A DNA stretch of 22,451 nt from a virus. Positions 2 to 20,164 of this stretch are shown in pieces. Under the pieces are notes generated by a model. It saw only the letters and a program-made list of their open reading frames with translations, had not been told where the DNA came from and ran no database searches. Each line of letters starts with the position of its first letter. Positions within the stretch are counted from its first letter, which is position 1. Both the position numbers and the translations under genes were made by a program. The stretch spans positions 1-22,451 of IMG/VR virus record IMGVR_UViG_3300042988_000167; one strand, written 5' to 3'.

Positions 2-160
2 AACACTCCGATTCGTTATGTGATTGGGTTCAGGGCAGTCGGTCCAGGTTCTCAACCACAGGTAAGACCAGTTGCCTTTTTCGTTCAAAAGGATGAAGCT
101 GAGACCTACATTCAAAACTGTAGAAACCCCGGTCTGTCCCTTTTCAAAATCACTGACTGA
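2..160 (+). CDS. C-terminal end of an unrecognised protein (5' truncated)
   Basis: The frame starting at base 2 stays open for 52 codons and ends at the TGA at 158-160. The visible part reads NTPIRYVIGFRAVGPG..., with a mixed alpha/beta look and the ending SLFKITD. The start lies outside the window. I do not recognise the family, and 52 residues are too few to assign a function. The stop is followed at once by a TAAATAG sequence and then by the tmRNA, so this is probably the last gene of the preceding unit. In T4 the genes upstream of 33 are rnh and dsbA; I see no convincing match to DsbA. Confidence 0.6.
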   Translation, partial: NTPIRYVIGFRAVGPGSQPQVRPVAFFVQKDEAETYIQNCRNPGLSLFKITD

Positions 161-167
161 TAAATAG
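160..167 (+). promoter_or_regulatory. late-promoter-like ATAAATAG upstream of the tmRNA
   Basis: ATAAATAG resembles the T4 late promoter core TATAAATA, read by gp55 with gp33 and the gp45 clamp. It begins right after the stop of the preceding gene. A start about 6-7 bases beyond the core would fall near 172, close to the expected 5' end of the tmRNA acceptor piece. Short AT-rich octamers occur by chance, so this is an inference. Confidence 0.4.
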
Positions 168-490
168 AATTGCCGTAGGTCGTTGAGAGACGAAGCATAG
201 ACGCTTAGGACGGGAGTGCAATACTCCCCGCCTCCACCATAAACACATCGCCCTGACTGTGAAGAAGGGAACCGGTAACTCATAGTAGAAAAGTTGGAAC
301 AAGCGAATTGACGGTCCAACGGTGTGTTTTTGATGGGGGCGAAATAGGTTCGACTGAGTGTAGTAAGGTCGTAAGGAGACCAAAGGCGATAATAGGTGCA
401 AACGATAACTTTGCCCCACTTGAGGAAATCGCTCTAGCAGCGTAACCTCATTGGGTATGGGCTCCACCTCGAAACAGAACGGGCCCACAT
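168..490 (+). ncRNA. ssrA: circularly permuted two-piece tmRNA (acceptor piece, intervening spacer, coding piece)
   Basis: tmRNA rescues stalled ribosomes together with SmpB and adds a degradation tag. The order here is permuted, as in alphaproteobacteria. The acceptor piece comes first: T stem 212-216/224-228, 7-base T loop 217-223, discriminator A236 and encoded CCA at 237-239. A spacer (240-334) follows, then the coding piece from 335. GGGGGCG (335-341) pairs with 229-235 to form a 7-bp acceptor stem with the alanine-type G3-U70 wobble. The conserved GGTTCGAC follows at 347-354. UGAGUGU (355-361) pairs with ACGCUUA (201-207) as helix P2. GGTC/GACC (367-370/378-381) fits a PK1 hairpin. The tag reads ANDNFAPLEEIALAA from GCA398 to the stop TAA at 443-445, preceded by AATAGGT. 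P5 encloses the tag end (421-425/446-450, inner stem 430-433/439-442). Outer ends are estimates. The T loop TGCAATA deviates from TTCRANY at its second base. No smpB is visible in the window. Confidence 0.93.
240..334 (+). other. intervening transcribed spacer of the permuted tmRNA
   Basis: This segment must be removed to free the CCA end at 239 and the coding 5' end at 335. Bases 241-249 pair with 321-329 (9 bp, one G-U), bringing both processing sites together at the base of a helix. Inside it two further hairpins can form: CCCT 251-254 with AGGG 266-269, and GTTGGA 293-298 with TCCAAC 315-320. The fold was drawn by eye and not scored. Confidence 0.6.
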
Positions 491-1805: not shown

Positions 1806-2723
1806 ATGAGAGCTGAGGAAGTGTTTACCCCTAGCCAGTTGAATGAGCTTGAAAGTGTTAAGATTGACCTGCTAAAGTTCCTTGGTAGGTCTCTGGTTAT
1901 GGGACCTGTTCCATTCAAGAGATACGAGAACATCGTGTTTGCTGGTGGTGCCTTTACGTCTCATTTTCAAAAAGAGCCGATGAAGGACCTGGACATGTTC
2001 GTCCTTAACAACGACGAGGCCATTGTTAAGTCTCTTACCGGCGTAACAGGCCATTTCAAGCCAGGCCCGGACATTAACGAAAGCCCGATTGGTTATCAGA
2101 ACAACCCTCGCATTCTTAGGGTTGTCACAAACACCAAGAGCGGCATTCAGCTTATCATCACTGACTACAAGACCCGCGAGGAGTTGATTGACCATTTCGA
2201 CTTCATGCATTGTCGTGTGTCAATGGTGTATGAGAGAACCGCCGCCGGCACAAATCATTTCAAGAATGTCATGTATATCTCCAAGAATGTTTTCAAATAC
2301 ATCAAGGAGAAGACACTGGTTCCGAACCCCAAGGCCAGCCCTGCCCCGCAGCAGTGGCGATATGATAAGTTCATGAAGCGTGGGTGGAAGTTGTCCAACC
2401 CGGAAGATTATCCGATCTCATTTCAAGCGATGAATCGGCGCCCATACGGTCTTGGTCCTTGGACAGGTGGCGTTGCTGCGCCTCTCAATATGAAACATGT
2501 TCGTACGAATGGTCTGAAAATCACAAATGGTGGCAATCCTTGTAGCGAGGTTGTCCTTGACAATGAGACCTATGAAGCTAAGCCTTTTACTATGAAGGAT
2601 GCCGAAGATTGGGCCCAGGCCGTCGAGCAACAATCCCAGCAGCGTCTCGCCAAGTATGATGAAGACGGCGACTTTGACGAACTGTTCAAGATACTTTCGG
2701 ATGACTGGAAAGATATGAGATAA
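1806..2723 (+). CDS. nucleotidyltransferase-fold protein (305 aa)
   Basis: The N-terminal half shows a minimal nucleotidyltransferase pattern of the DNA polymerase beta superfamily. IVFAGGAF (residues 43-50) gives the GG loop on a hydrophobic strand. After a short helix, KDLDMFVL (60-67) gives the two metal-binding aspartates D61 and D63. A strand GIQLIITD (113-120) could carry the third acidic residue. HFDFMHCRVSMVYE (130-143) and WRYDKFMKRGWKL near 185-197 are further recognisable patches that I associate with related phage proteins. The substrate cannot be read from the sequence. Possibilities include tRNA or tmRNA 3' ends, a nucleotide or a protein. Start: GAGGA seven bases upstream. The stop overlaps the start of gp59 (TAATG). 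It could be an inactive structural relative. Confidence 0.65.
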   Translation: MRAEEVFTPSQLNELESVKIDLLKFLGRSLVMGPVPFKRYENIVFAGGAFTSHFQKEPMKDLDMFVLNNDEAIVKSLTGVTGHFKPGPDINESPIGYQNNPRILRVVTNTKSGIQLIITDYKTREELIDHFDFMHCRVSMVYERTAAGTNHFKNVMYISKNVFKYIKEKTLVPNPKASPAPQQWRYDKFMKRGWKLSNPEDYPISFQAMNRRPYGLGPWTGGVAAPLNMKHVRTNGLKITNGGNPCSEVVLDNETYEAKPFTMKDAEDWAQAVEQQSQQRLAKYDEDGDFDELFKILSDDWKDMR

Positions 2724-3337
2724 TGGAACACCTGAGTGGATATGGAGCCTATCAGTTATACCTGGCCATTCGCACTCACTTCAACTCCGACTCGTATGAC
2801 TTCTTCAAGTTTGGTGGCAAGACAAATGCCACCAAACACTCCTACATGAAGCGCAGAGACAAGCAGTTCTTTGAGGCGTTGGCTAAGCGTTATAACTTCC
2901 AAGAGTTGAAAGACCTGTATGTGTCTAACTTCATTGAGGGGAGACACTATCCGGTCAATCTGGTTGAGGAAGAAGCCCATAGCACCTTCTTTGAGTATTG
3001 CCGAAAGAGAGACGCACTTGGTTATGTCTTTGGTGACGAACTGGGTAAGGTCTTTGTCAAAGGCGTGAAGGAGAGCATATCGGTCAATCGTGGTGAGTAT
3101 CCCCGCATTCTGTTGCTCTATATGCAGCATGAAATCGGATTGGAGACATTGGTTCTGTTCAATGAGTATCTACCTTTCATACCAATGTTTGACAAGGCGC
3201 TGGGTAAGCAAGACATTCTTTGGAGTGTCATTAGGCAGCAGATGCTGAAGTTCAAGCCTTTTATGAAGTATGACGCCGAGAAGATCAAGGGCATTTTGAA
3301 ACGCAAAGTGAGTGAGGAACTCAATGACAAAGATTAA
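2723..3337 (+). CDS. 59: DNA helicase loader gp59
   Basis: T4 gp59 loads the gp41 replicative helicase onto gp32-coated forked DNA and helps recombination-dependent replication. This 204-residue product is close to the T4 length (217). The N-terminal region matches in order: AYQLYLAIRTHF (about 9-20, compare T4 VYKLYLMIKQHM), YDFFKFGGK, then the strongest patch, KRRDKQFFEALAKRYNFQEL (about 43-62, compare KRRDKYFFQKLSEKYKLKEL), then SNFIEG. The C-terminal domain is helical and basic, consistent with DNA and gp32 contacts. The start overlaps the preceding stop (TAATG). It sits upstream of gp32 as in T4, though separated here by small genes. Confidence 0.88.
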   Translation: MEHLSGYGAYQLYLAIRTHFNSDSYDFFKFGGKTNATKHSYMKRRDKQFFEALAKRYNFQELKDLYVSNFIEGRHYPVNLVEEEAHSTFFEYCRKRDALGYVFGDELGKVFVKGVKESISVNRGEYPRILLLYMQHEIGLETLVLFNEYLPFIPMFDKALGKQDILWSVIRQQMLKFKPFMKYDAEKIKGILKRKVSEELNDKD

Positions 3338-4610: not shown

Positions 4611-4658
4611 ATGACATACACTGCACATACGCTGCTAATACAAAGGAAATACATATGA
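4611..4658 (+). CDS. possible 15-codon leader peptide coupled to gp32
   Basis: ATG at 4611 opens the frame MTYTAHTLLIQRKYI, whose TGA (4656-4658) overlaps the gp32 start by ATGA. A CGGAG sequence lies 11 bases upstream. The overlap is the same kind that links the other genes here, so translation of this leader could feed or regulate gp32 synthesis. It may also be chance: gp32 has its own good ribosome site, AAAGGAAA. Confidence 0.3.
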   Translation: MTYTAHTLLIQRKYI

Positions 4659-5626
4659 CAAACTTTTCAAACCTCAAGAAATCATCCTCCCAGAACTTCG
4701 ATAAACTCCTAAAGCAGGTCGAGAAGCTTTCAGCTCCGCCAACCTTTGAGAAGGAAGATACCGACAACTATTGGAAGCCAACCCCTGATAAGGCTGGTAA
4801 CGCAGTTGCGGTCATTCGTTTCCTTCCTGGTGGTCCGGTTGATGGCGACGATGCTGTGCCATTCGTGCGTTTCTTCGACCACGGATTCCAGAGCAAGAAG
4901 ACCGGCAAGTGGTACATCGAGAAGTCCCTAACCACCTTTGACGAGAAGGACCCGGTTACAGACTTCAATTCTGGTCTATGGGGTGATCGTACTGATCCTA
5001 CCGAAACACCAGAGCGTCAGCAGGCACGTAACCAGAAGCGTCGTCTTCATTATGTGTCCAACATCTACGTTGTGACTGATCCGGCCAAACCAGAGAACGA
5101 AGGCAAGGTCTTCCTTTTCAAGTATGGCAAGAAAATCCATGACAAGATTTTGAAGATGATGCATCCGGACCTTGAGTCCGAGCCAAGGGTCAATCCTACC
5201 GACCTGTGGCTGGGTGCCAACTTCAAACTGAAGCAGACCCGTCAGACTGCCAACATTGGTGGTCGTCAGGTTTCCTTTCCGAACTATGATGAGTCTGTAT
5301 TCCTACAGCCTGCACCACTGTTCAAGGATGACAAGGAAATCGAGAAGGTCTGGCAGGCACAGTACTCGCTTCTTGAGATTATCGACCGCAAGAACTTCAA
5401 GACCTATGACGAACTGAAGCGCAAGCTTGATGACGTTCTGGGCCTGACTGGGCGCTCGACTCCTGTCCGCGAGACTACGCAGACAGCAGCACGATCCGCT
5501 GAAATTCGACACAGCGAAGACGAGGAAGATGCACCATGGGCAACAACGGACCTGCCAAAGGTTCCTGTTGATGATGGTGAGACTGATCCTGATCTGGCAA
5601 TGTTCGAAAGACTTGCAAACGAGTAA
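4655..5626 (+). CDS. 32: single-stranded DNA-binding protein gp32
   Basis: gp32 coats single-stranded DNA at the phage fork and in recombination and binds gp59. The length, 323 residues, is near T4 (301). The N-terminal cooperativity segment includes the LAST-like motif KKSSS (8-12). The core OB region matches T4 at WKPTPDKAGNAVAVIRFLP (40-58), FVRFFDHGF (70-78), KWYIEKSL (85-92), and DPAKPENEGKVFLFKYGKKI (142-161). The C-terminus is acidic and ends DPDLAMFERLANE, as expected for the regulatory tail. The T4 zinc ligands are gone: the protein has no cysteine, with S91 and the DPVT at 99-102 where T4 has its three Cys. AAAGGAAA supports the start. It has its own consensus promoter and a terminator right after the stop. 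Confidence 0.95.
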   Translation: MTNFSNLKKSSSQNFDKLLKQVEKLSAPPTFEKEDTDNYWKPTPDKAGNAVAVIRFLPGGPVDGDDAVPFVRFFDHGFQSKKTGKWYIEKSLTTFDEKDPVTDFNSGLWGDRTDPTETPERQQARNQKRRLHYVSNIYVVTDPAKPENEGKVFLFKYGKKIHDKILKMMHPDLESEPRVNPTDLWLGANFKLKQTRQTANIGGRQVSFPNYDESVFLQPAPLFKDDKEIEKVWQAQYSLLEIIDRKNFKTYDELKRKLDDVLGLTGRSTPVRETTQTAARSAEIRHSEDEEDAPWATTDLPKVPVDDGETDPDLAMFERLANE

Positions 5627-12007: not shown

Positions 12008-13293
12008 CTTATACTCCGTTTCTAGGCAAGTTTCCGAAGATCAAGTACAAAATGGATAACACCATCTATGGCGACTCGGAAACGCTGACAAACCTTTTCT
12101 TTAGGGTCGACCTGGTCAAAAAGACCATTGACAATGCATCAGCCTACTACACATACATTCTGAATGAGGGTGACACACCAGAAATCCTGGCTGATAAGAT
12201 TTATGGTGACCCCGGTGCTTTCTGGATGATCCTCTATGCCAATGACATTTTTGATCCACAGTTCGATTGGCCTCTGAGTGAGGAAGGATTGATCCACTAT
12301 GTTGCCGAGAAGTATCGTCCAGTAACTCAGACCGCCTCGGTTAAGCAGGTGAAGATCAAGAATGCAGGCACCGGATACAAGGATGGAGATGCCGTTGTCT
12401 ATGACGGACATGGCAGTGGTGCTTCAGTGTCAATCAAGGTGGACGAGTATGATGGCAGCATTTTGTATGCCAATGTAGAGTATAGCGGCTCTGGTTATTT
12501 CATGGGCGACATGGTGTCTTGTGATGTAACCTCTCTAAGAGACTATGACGGCGTTGATGCTGAACTTGAGGTTGTTCTAAAGGACCCTGATGATGCGGAC
12601 GTTCTATATTATGCGAAAGAAACTATTCATCATTATGAAAAGGTGGTTACCAGGGTCGATAGCCGCAATATAGATAGTCCGGACCAGAACCGTTACATCG
12701 TCTCCAAGGATCAGTTGTCAAATGGCGTTATCTACCTGGCGAATGTTTCTGGTGAGTTCTCTAATGCAGACTTCGCATTCGTCAAGGACAATGTTGAACC
12801 AGGTGGCGACACAAGCAATGCCACATTCTCTGGGTATGTATTGGAATGGAATCCAACAGACACAAATCCTGAGTTCGGTACATCTAATGGATGGATCACA
12901 TTGGTCGTCACAAAAGGCGACTTCGTTGAGTATGTGGATTTGAAAGGCAATACGACCGGCGCCATTGGCACCATTATGCATACATCATTCAATGATCCTA
13001 ACTATGTCCTACCAAATGACAGCGTTGCGCCATTCGAGTATTACAACAACCTACCCGAGACGCAGGCATATGAGTCCTTCAATATCGAGGACTATACTGT
13101 CACCGAGATTTACAAGCGCTTTGCTATTTCCATTTGGGACCATGAGAATGAGTTGAATGAGAAGAAGCGCATCATCAAGATCATCAAACCGATGTATCAT
13201 GCAAAAATCCTAAACGAACTTGAGAAAATCCTGTCTGCATATAAGGCTGATGGTTCTGTTCCTGTATACTCCTATAAGAGGCGATTGTTCTAA
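12004..13293 (+). CDS. 53: baseplate wedge protein gp53, enlarged (429 aa)
   Basis: gp53 joins wedges around the hub in T4. The N-terminal part MTYTPFLGKFPKIKYKM... and DLVKKTIDNASAYYTYILNEGDTPEILADKIYGDPGAFWMILYANDI (about 38-84) is the conserved gp53 core, with the LysM-like GDTPEILADKIYG segment. The C-terminus (IKIIKPMYHAKILNELEKIL...YSYKRRLF) also fits. The protein is more than twice the T4 size (196). The extra middle includes GxGY repeats at about 116-175 (KNAGTGYKDGDAVVYDG and EYSGSGYFMGD) and further beta segments to about 350. I chose the ATG at 12004 because it overlaps the preceding stop; the frame is open upstream to 11920 but has no better start. Confidence 0.85.
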   Translation: MTYTPFLGKFPKIKYKMDNTIYGDSETLTNLFFRVDLVKKTIDNASAYYTYILNEGDTPEILADKIYGDPGAFWMILYANDIFDPQFDWPLSEEGLIHYVAEKYRPVTQTASVKQVKIKNAGTGYKDGDAVVYDGHGSGASVSIKVDEYDGSILYANVEYSGSGYFMGDMVSCDVTSLRDYDGVDAELEVVLKDPDDADVLYYAKETIHHYEKVVTRVDSRNIDSPDQNRYIVSKDQLSNGVIYLANVSGEFSNADFAFVKDNVEPGGDTSNATFSGYVLEWNPTDTNPEFGTSNGWITLVVTKGDFVEYVDLKGNTTGAIGTIMHTSFNDPNYVLPNDSVAPFEYYNNLPETQAYESFNIEDYTVTEIYKRFAISIWDHENELNEKKRIIKIIKPMYHAKILNELEKILSAYKADGSVPVYSYKRRLF

Positions 13294-18064: not shown

Positions 18065-20164
18065 ATGGCAACAGCAAACACCGCACTTCAGGTTGCAGAC
18101 CTAGACTTCTTTAGCATCAAAGAAAACCTGAAAGGGTTTTTGAAGAACCAGGATACGTTCTCTGACTATGACTTTGAGGGATCGGGACTACAGGTTCTAT
18201 TAGACCTACTGGCTTATAACACAGCCTATAATGGCTGGTATCTAAACATGGTGGCCAATGAGTCCTTCCTTGATACCTCCCAAATGCGTAACAACATTCT
18301 TTCACACGCAAAGGCCATTAACTATGTGCCTCAGTCGTCCCATGCGGCGATGGCCAAGGTCAACATTCGCGTCTTTCCTTCCTATGCAGAAGACCCATCA
18401 GACTCCATTCAACATATCGTCCTTGATAAGTATACCAAATTCTATGGCGTAGACTCCGAGGGCATTCACCGCACCTTCGTAACTGCACACGCAAACGACG
18501 CAGTTAAGGTGGCAGGTGTATTCAATTTCGCCAATGTGGTTCTAAAACAGGGAGACGTTATCACCCTACAGTTTAGTGCCACCACAGATAACGAGCAGAG
18601 ACGCTATGAAATTCCTTCTGCAAATGTGGATGTAAGCACCATTGAGGTCACTGTCCAGGCATCACCCACCAATACATGGACAGATGTTTACACACAGGCA
18701 ACCGACCTGACCGAGATTAAGGGCACCGATAATGTCTACTTCGTTGAGGAGAATGAAAACCTCAACTACACCATTTACTTTGGTGATAATGTCATTGGTC
18801 GGGCACCACAGAATGGCAGCATCATCAATGTGACATACCTTGATGTGGTTGGTTCCAGAGCCAATAACATTTCCAAGTTCTATCCTGTCGATCCTATCGC
18901 CAAGAGGTTCACGAATAAGATTGTCGTTACAGCCAAGTCATCCTCTTATGGCGGCACAGACAAGGAAGGTCTGGATCAGATCAGGTTTAGGGCACCCAAC
19001 TTCTACACGACCCAGAACCGTGCAGTGACCGAGAACGATTATGAAAGCCTTATCCTAAGAGACTATAACAATATCGAGGCTGTATCTGTATGGGGTGGAG
19101 AGACAAATGACCCACCTGTTTATGGTAAGGTGTTCATGTCTCTAAAGACCCGCGGTTACTTCACACTGACCGAGTTGGAAAAGGATGTCATCAAGAACGA
19201 GTTGATTGCCAACCGTAACGTCATGACCATCATTCCAGAAATCATTGATCCTAACTACTGCTTCATTCAAATCAGAGGATCGGTTACATACAATCCAAGC
19301 CTGACAACCAAGTCGGGTAACGAGTTGAAATCCATTGTCAAGCAGGCCATTCTTGATTACAACCAGACCGAGTTGAACACATTCAAGTCGACCTTCAAGA
19401 AGTCAAGGCTCCAGTATTACATCGACATTTGCGACAACTCAATCACTGGTTCCGACCTGCATATATTCCTACAGCAGCGCATCCCACTTGAGTTCAAGAA
19501 GGTTCGTAAGTATAACATTGACTTTGGTGCACCACTCCGTAAGGGATCGCTGGTCGATAAGCTATTCACCTTTCCTGAAATGGTTGTGGCCGACTCCGAT
19601 CAGACATTGCGCTCGGTCTACCTGGAAGAAATCCCATCCTCATTCACCGGCGTTGATGCCGTTGACATTACAGATGCAGGTTTCGGATACGAATACATAC
19701 CAGAGGTAGTCATCACCGGTGATGGTTCAAACGCACAGGCAGAGGCCGTGGTGGTCAATGGTCGTGTTACGAGTATCAATGTCATCAACCCAGGCGTAAA
19801 CTACACCAGAGCTACCGTTTCTATTATCGGTGGTGGTGGGCAAGGAGCCGGTAAAGGCGTTGCCAAGGCTACTGCTGTTCTGGCTGCACGTTATGGAACA
19901 TTGAGAGCATACTACTACAGAACAAATGGTGAGAAGGTTATCGTGCTTGACAAGATCGGCACCGTTGACTATGACACTGGTAAGATCGTTCTAAATAACA
20001 TCACCCCTCTGAATAATGTCGAGAACCCATTCTATGACCGAGAAATCCTGACCATCAGTGTTCCTCCCGAGAGTGAGATTATCCCACCACTCAGAAACAG
20101 GATTCTAACGATTGACGCATTGAATGCCCAGTCGATCCTGATTGACATGGTTCCAGAAAGCTAA
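18065..20164 (+). CDS. 6: baseplate wedge protein gp6
   Basis: gp6 forms the inner ring connecting wedges and is a J-domain-like protein (type VI TssF/TssG relatives). The length, 699 residues, is near T4 (660). Recognisable parts include VADLDFFSIKENLKGFLKNQDTFSDYDFEGSGLQVLLDLLAYNTAYNGWYLNMVANESFLDTSQMRNNILSHAKAINYVPQSS (10-93), the hallmark N-terminus of gp6 in T4-like phages, and FRAPNFYTTQNRAVTENDYESLI (about 310-332). At about 530-605 there is an inserted GxGY beta module (DITDAGFGYEYIPEVVITGDG, then INPGVNYTRATVSIIGGGGQGAG). The start is the ATG three bases after the gp25 stop, and the stop overlaps the next start (TAATG). Confidence 0.93.
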   Translation: MATANTALQVADLDFFSIKENLKGFLKNQDTFSDYDFEGSGLQVLLDLLAYNTAYNGWYLNMVANESFLDTSQMRNNILSHAKAINYVPQSSHAAMAKVNIRVFPSYAEDPSDSIQHIVLDKYTKFYGVDSEGIHRTFVTAHANDAVKVAGVFNFANVVLKQGDVITLQFSATTDNEQRRYEIPSANVDVSTIEVTVQASPTNTWTDVYTQATDLTEIKGTDNVYFVEENENLNYTIYFGDNVIGRAPQNGSIINVTYLDVVGSRANNISKFYPVDPIAKRFTNKIVVTAKSSSYGGTDKEGLDQIRFRAPNFYTTQNRAVTENDYESLILRDYNNIEAVSVWGGETNDPPVYGKVFMSLKTRGYFTLTELEKDVIKNELIANRNVMTIIPEIIDPNYCFIQIRGSVTYNPSLTTKSGNELKSIVKQAILDYNQTELNTFKSTFKKSRLQYYIDICDNSITGSDLHIFLQQRIPLEFKKVRKYNIDFGAPLRKGSLVDKLFTFPEMVVADSDQTLRSVYLEEIPSSFTGVDAVDITDAGFGYEYIPEVVITGDGSNAQAEAVVVNGRVTSINVINPGVNYTRATVSIIGGGGQGAGKGVAKATAVLAARYGTLRAYYYRTNGEKVIVLDKIGTVDYDTGKIVLNNITPLNNVENPFYDREILTISVPPESEIIPPLRNRILTIDALNAQSILIDMVPES

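Follow-up and report, generated by a model that had tools for sequence, protein, structure and literature searches.

A two-piece tmRNA gene among T4-type genes

The window, that is, the whole stretch of DNA analysed, is a 22,451-base virus record. ARAGORN identified one gene in it, a permuted tmRNA on the plus strand (147-536) with the tag GANDNFAPLEEIALAA. Two Rfam models matched the same region of the plus strand above their gathering scores: RF04321, tmRNA_permuted (178-445, 95.6 bits, gathering 47, E 1e-17), and RF01849, alpha_tmRNA (138-489, 91.9 bits, gathering 50, E 4e-24). An earlier note on this DNA had proposed a permuted two-piece tmRNA in a T4-like phage and had named ARAGORN and the alpha_tmRNA covariance model as checks. 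Both programs, the second Rfam model and the surrounding T4 genes (PHROGs) bore this proposal out.

All parts of the gene lie on the plus strand. The acceptor piece (172-239), whose 5' end would fall at about 168-178 based on promoter spacing and helix P3c, carries the first strands of helices P3c (169-174), P3b (GGTC, 178-181), P3a (ACGA, 190-193) and P2 (201-207). These are followed by the T arm (212-228; stem 212-216/224-228, loop TGCAATA 217-223) and by the 3' strand of the acceptor stem P1 (229-235), A236 and CCA at 237-239. An intervening segment of 95 nt without an ORF (240-334), whose removal is expected, leads to the coding piece (335-489), which was delimited by ARAGORN and Rfam. By analogy with known two-piece tmRNAs, RNase P is expected to cut between 334 and 335, immediately before the P1 5' strand GGGGGCG (335-341). 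The coding-side strands of P2 (355-361), P3a (369-372), P3b (378-381) and P3c (385-390) together span 355-390. The tag frame (398-445) runs from the resume codon GCA (398-400) to the stop TAA (443-445) and encodes ANDNFAPLEEIALAA; the structured 3' end (446-489) has a hairpin in the two-strand fold (458-464/481-487) and a GAAACAGAA motif. The CCA, the P1 stem (335-341/229-235) with G337-U233 as its third pair, the P2 stem, the resume codon, the tag and the stop were all present as first described. A G-U third acceptor pair with CCA is the identity of alanine acceptors.

Downstream on the same strand are a 79-residue ORF with six relatives in viral contigs (519-758) and homologues of the late-transcription coactivator gp33 (864-1088; phrog_254, 1.2e-19; PF16805, 9.3e-20), the DNA helicase loader gp59 (2723-3337; phrog_269, 2.5e-47) and the single-strand DNA-binding protein gp32 (4655-5626; phrog_224, 7.5e-94). 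Further T4-type genes in the window, identified through PHROGs and Pfam, encode tail tube, head closure, DNA end protector and baseplate proteins. The window thus has T4 core genes and the shared order around the tmRNA that is found in its Melnitz and pelagimyophage relatives. A near-identity DNA search of the whole window against the phage collection gave no match; the nearest isolates, judged by the gp6-like baseplate protein (32-38% identity), were Pelagibacter phage HTVC008M and Methylophilales phage Melnitz. An Rfam search of the window gave no glutamine riboswitch. The gp53-like (12055-13290) and gp6-like (18065-20164) baseplate proteins have in common an additional stretch to which head-closure families and others of structural type (phrog_438, phrog_460) were also matched, which suggests a mobile structural domain.

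Gene order in related phages

The window's gene is not the first of its kind in a T4-like phage, as the earlier note had supposed it might be. A two-piece tmRNA directly upstream of the transcription coactivator was described in the T4-like phage Melnitz in 2022, in a study that put the number of two-piece tmRNAs in phage genomes at 53 and suggested roles for them (PMC9004378), and the window is a further member of that known kind. RF04321 matched Melnitz (113.4 bits), Mosig (93.6 bits), HTVC008M (90.6 bits) and Phosso (113.3 bits), and also Rhodobacter phage RcSimone-Hastad.

In Melnitz, whose host is OM43, and in the Pelagibacter phages Mosig and HTVC008M, the permuted tmRNA lies just upstream of the late-transcription coactivator, as in the window. 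The order tmRNA-gp33-gp59-gp32 was found in these three phages and in most related contigs; the Melnitz record reads tmRNA, gp33, gp59, gp32, and the Mosig record tmRNA, late-promoter gene, thyX, gp59, gp32. The HTVC008M tmRNA (KC465899.1:145161-145370), about 0.6 kb before the late-promoter gene, carries no annotation. Among contigs of the window's length class that extend at least 2.5 kb downstream, some of them fetched by gp33, 53 of 63 had gp33 within 2.5 kb downstream; the count was 37 of 47 when only contigs from the acceptor-end DNA-pattern scan were considered. Since the same tmRNA-coactivator order recurs in Melnitz, Mosig, HTVC008M and more than 50 related metagenomic contigs, gene order indicates that the tmRNA is an old inherited part of the tmRNA-gp33-gp59-gp32 block and not a recent capture from a host. 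It would then be a long-standing syntenic gene of a large T4-like phage group.

Helices joining the two pieces

Covariation was assessed in 59 distinct phage relatives, with slid partners as the control. P1 was 99.8% paired, and its third pair was G-U in 59/59 aligned relatives and in 148/148 distinct extracted genes. The T stem was 100% paired with double changes at 3 pairs, P2 was 87.5% paired with double changes at 5 pairs, and P3a (369-372/190-193) was 89.4% paired with double changes at all four of its pairs. For P3b (378-381/178-181) 100% of cells were paired, with one double change. Pairing dropped to 0-67% with slid partners, and each of these five helices stood well above that control. 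A PK1-like hairpin GGTC/GACC (367-370/378-381), proposed in the earlier note, was paired in 63.6% of cases in relatives, whereas its GACC strand paired with 178-181 in 100%; the hairpin was accordingly set aside in favor of P3b. The T loop TGCAATA, previously regarded as unusual, proved in a survey of loops to be a variant of the group norm [GT]GC[AG][AG]T[AT].

P3c (385-390/169-174) is a short helix whose changes are phylogenetically clustered. Its signal was absent at fixed register, the window having one extra base, and appeared once a shift was allowed: the observed mean was 4.73 bp, compared to a mean of 4.43 and a largest value of 4.63 in 500 partner shuffles. Relatives carry the compensatory versions GGC/GCC, AGC/GCT and GAC/GTC. 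An unconstrained two-strand fold of both pieces recovered P1, the T stem, P2, P3a, P3b and P3c. Together, covariation and folding support the joining of the acceptor and coding pieces by the three helices P3a, P3b and P3c.

Absence of PK1

To our knowledge, almost every bacterial tmRNA has a conserved PK1. In 37 of the 39 bacterial genes measured, P1 begins 82-90 nt ahead of the resume codon. Phage genes fell into three groups, of 78-87, about 55-67 and 47-48 nt, with the window in the second (mostly 62-67 nt). In the window P3b is followed by only 16 nt (382-397) before the resume codon, at the site of bacterial PK1 and too short for it, and this distance was 16-17 nt in 73/86 loci of its class. 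The Rfam alignments of the window have gaps at the PK1 region of the models. Based on these lengths and gaps, no PK1 pseudoknot was identified in the window after helix 2 and before the tag frame, and its clade seems to be without bacterial PK1.

Comparison with known tmRNAs sets this clade apart. Melnitz keeps a pre-tag segment of bacterial length, whereas the window's clade is about 20 nt shorter there. The Sinorhizobium jumbo phage Phosso, an alphaproteobacterial phage with a permuted tmRNA, gave the best blastn match to the 3' part of the window's gene; its tmRNA, however, is host-like, with a CCGGTATTGTACC...CGG segment marking bacterial PK1, and no gp33 homologue was found beside it. A complete PK1 is rarely missing from natural tmRNAs, and those of Oenococcus oeni and the Pavlova chloroplast (partial sequence) resemble the window's in having no PK1 pseudoknot (PMC1168896). 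These are non-phage genes that miss helix 4 only, whereas the window misses the whole PK1 segment. In E. coli tmRNA, PK1 could be replaced by a hairpin or a single strand with tagging kept, and the leader of the window, AUAG-GU-GCA, matches the AUAG/AUAA preference given in that study (PMC4236655). We found no paper describing a PK1-less phage tmRNA class in our literature collection, which is incomplete.

How such an RNA would present its tag can be proposed from the fold. A continuous inter-piece helix P2-P3a-P3b-P3c would reach the AUAG-type leader, a single strand preceding the resume codon, at the place of bacterial PK1, and we infer that P3c replaces PK1. A pseudoknot of an unforeseen kind, involving the tag or the other piece, may also form in this clade. 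We tentatively suggest, as a proposal that may well be wrong, that this is a phage-only PK1-less class in which the continuous helix positions the tag start and which, switched on with the late programme beside gp33, substitutes for host trans-translation late in infection. An old question is now testable, as a natural PK1-less clade with a covariation-backed replacement may show the minimal job of PK1.

The shorter class, in which the resume codon comes 47-48 nt after the start of P1, comprises loci L043, L044, L062, L067, L075, L077, L078, L083, L091, L093, L107, L109, L115, L117 and L128. No gp33 homologue was detected in the DNA around these tmRNAs.

A putative late promoter

Upstream of the acceptor piece, GATAAATA (159-166, plus strand) fits the T4-like late promoter NATAAATA, which is the late promoter of T4-like cyanophages (PMC2984593); no -35 box was found at the right spacing before it in the window. 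It occupies the same place as the TATAAATA of relatives, which lies upstream with little variation in spacing in 75 of 135 distinct phage tmRNA loci, in 3 after shuffling, and in 0/38 bacterial loci. The element TTGAC-N16-18 also precedes TATAAATA in 41 phage loci, and TATAAT is there instead in only 8. Across the whole window TATAAATA-like sites were at chance level, the window's match being a single weak site, so the assignment of the promoter rests on the conservation of its position in relatives. Based on that conservation, late expression of the window's tmRNA is likely.

Many relatives have an overlapping TTGACA-N17-TATAAATA, a sigma-70 early/T4-late composite promoter (e.g., L132:4045-4075). 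Overlapping early and late promoters have been described for T4-like cyanophages (PMC2984593).

Distribution and origin

The tag pattern was matched in at least 119 viral contigs, and the acceptor-end pattern of the window's group gave at least 119 matches; at the loci scanned, ARAGORN called 102 permuted and 2 standard tmRNAs. A blastn comparison of two related tmRNAs with isolates revealed no member of the window's class. With one of them the matches were all short and confined to Melnitz and an Erythrobacter phage, and with the other they fell in the neighbouring query region, partly annotated as tRNA-Arg.

In its architecture the window's gene resembles alphaproteobacterial tmRNA (RF01849; Caulobacter type), with which it shares the acceptor-then-coding order, G3-U70, a degenerate T loop, an ANDN...LAA tag and a GAAACAGAA-type 3' end. 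It differs in being without PK1, in having P3c join both pieces close to the resume codon, and in its RF01849 score of 91.9 bits. The main hits of sampled bacterial genomes scored 143-313 bits, versus 51-114 for the phage genes tested. A weakly resolved tree of 73 phage and 35 bacterial tmRNA genes (144 columns) separated phage from bacterial tmRNAs by one change (support 85) and placed the window inside well-supported all-phage sets (96, 99, 95). The best identity of the window's tmRNA was 80%, to another phage gene. Because of the tree split, this identity and the score gap, recent capture from a host is unsupported; of the host origin suggested in the earlier note, what can stand is at best an ancient capture, given the all-phage clades and the conserved gene order.

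In a MAG named Euryarchaeota archaeon SP339 (L176), a permuted tmRNA of the phage type is accompanied by matches to gp59, gp32 and, more distantly, gp33. Some database "archaeal tmRNAs" may be wrongly binned phage contigs.

Proposed function and alternatives

Phage tags ended in LAA in 122 of 139 cases. A comparison with bacterial tags, suggested in the earlier note, was run, and the exact tag ANDNFAPLEEIALAA was in no GTDB species genome; nor was it in any other viral contig. No SmpB was identified in 15 phage records, in a search that was positive in 10 of 14 control genomes, and host SmpB would therefore be needed.

We consider it likely that the locus encodes a functional two-piece PK1-less tmRNA of the phage, inherited in a T4-like lineage of (probably) alphaproteobacterial phages, expressed from a late-type promoter and acting in trans-translation with host SmpB. 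The gene, its covariation-based fold, its tag, the gene order and the absence of PK1 could be read from the sequences compared; from this anatomy we infer the function, and with it the transcription, processing, alanine charging, use of SmpB and benefit to the phage. The RNA would be transcribed from the promoter at 159-166 and processed by host enzymes, with RNase P cutting the precursor at 334/335 and trimming proceeding to the CCA at 239, and both pieces would be held together by P1, P2, P3a, P3b and P3c. Host alanyl-tRNA synthetase would charge the RNA via G337-U233, and host SmpB would bring it to stalled ribosomes, where ANDNFAPLEEIALAA would be added and the LAA-ended tag would mark proteins for ClpXP-type degradation. 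The phage would benefit by ribosomes being kept free late in infection. Ribosome rescue probably matters to T4-like phages with a long-standing syntenic tmRNA tied to the late-transcription coactivator.

A different role would be that of a decoy or re-programmer, with the RNA entering ribosomes or binding SmpB and so blocking host tmRNA, or with the tag steering the choice of degradation targets. Blocking of host tmRNA is reported for the tag-less tmRNA of phage DS6A (PMC11915505), and the absence of the window's tag from GTDB species genomes is in keeping with such a role. The tag frame of the window, however, is intact, unlike that of DS6A, and the ANDN...LAA pattern is kept in nearly all relatives, which is what retention of tagging and degradation would predict. 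The intact tag and LAA ends fit normal trans-translation rather than the inhibitory DS6A type, and we regard this alternative as unlikely.

It is also quite improbable that the gene is an ordinary bacterial-type tmRNA in which PK1 is present but was misread, its shortening being an effect of alignment. Other phage tmRNAs (Melnitz, Phosso) do have a segment of bacterial length at this site, but two interlocked helices do not fit into the 16-17 nt left between P3b and the tag frame, and P3a and P3b covary across both pieces. Least probable is that the gene is a recent passenger, a tmRNA gene that came from a host through transduction or imprecise excision and is unused by the phage. Although ssrA is a common integration site and ssrA fragments occur in prophages (PMC9004378), the gene is complete, with compensatory changes, its order with its neighbours is fixed across divergent phages, it falls in a phage-only clade, its tag has no match in GTDB species genomes, and the promoters are unlike bacterial ones. 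These observations largely refute a recent passenger.

Genes within the intervening segment

In three related loci (L132-L134) the intervening segment is 492 nt long and holds a 144-residue ORF, between the CCA and the coding piece (L132:4203-4637; also in L133 and L134), that matches HNH homing endonucleases (phrog_655, 7e-13). As the segment would be discarded anyway, extra genes may be able to nest there safely. Small, often hydrophobic ORFs were also observed in intervening segments of 235-499 nt in L069, L176, L038, L075, L036 and L127, and some of these are alike across phages, namely the L069/L176 pair and the L038/L075 pair.
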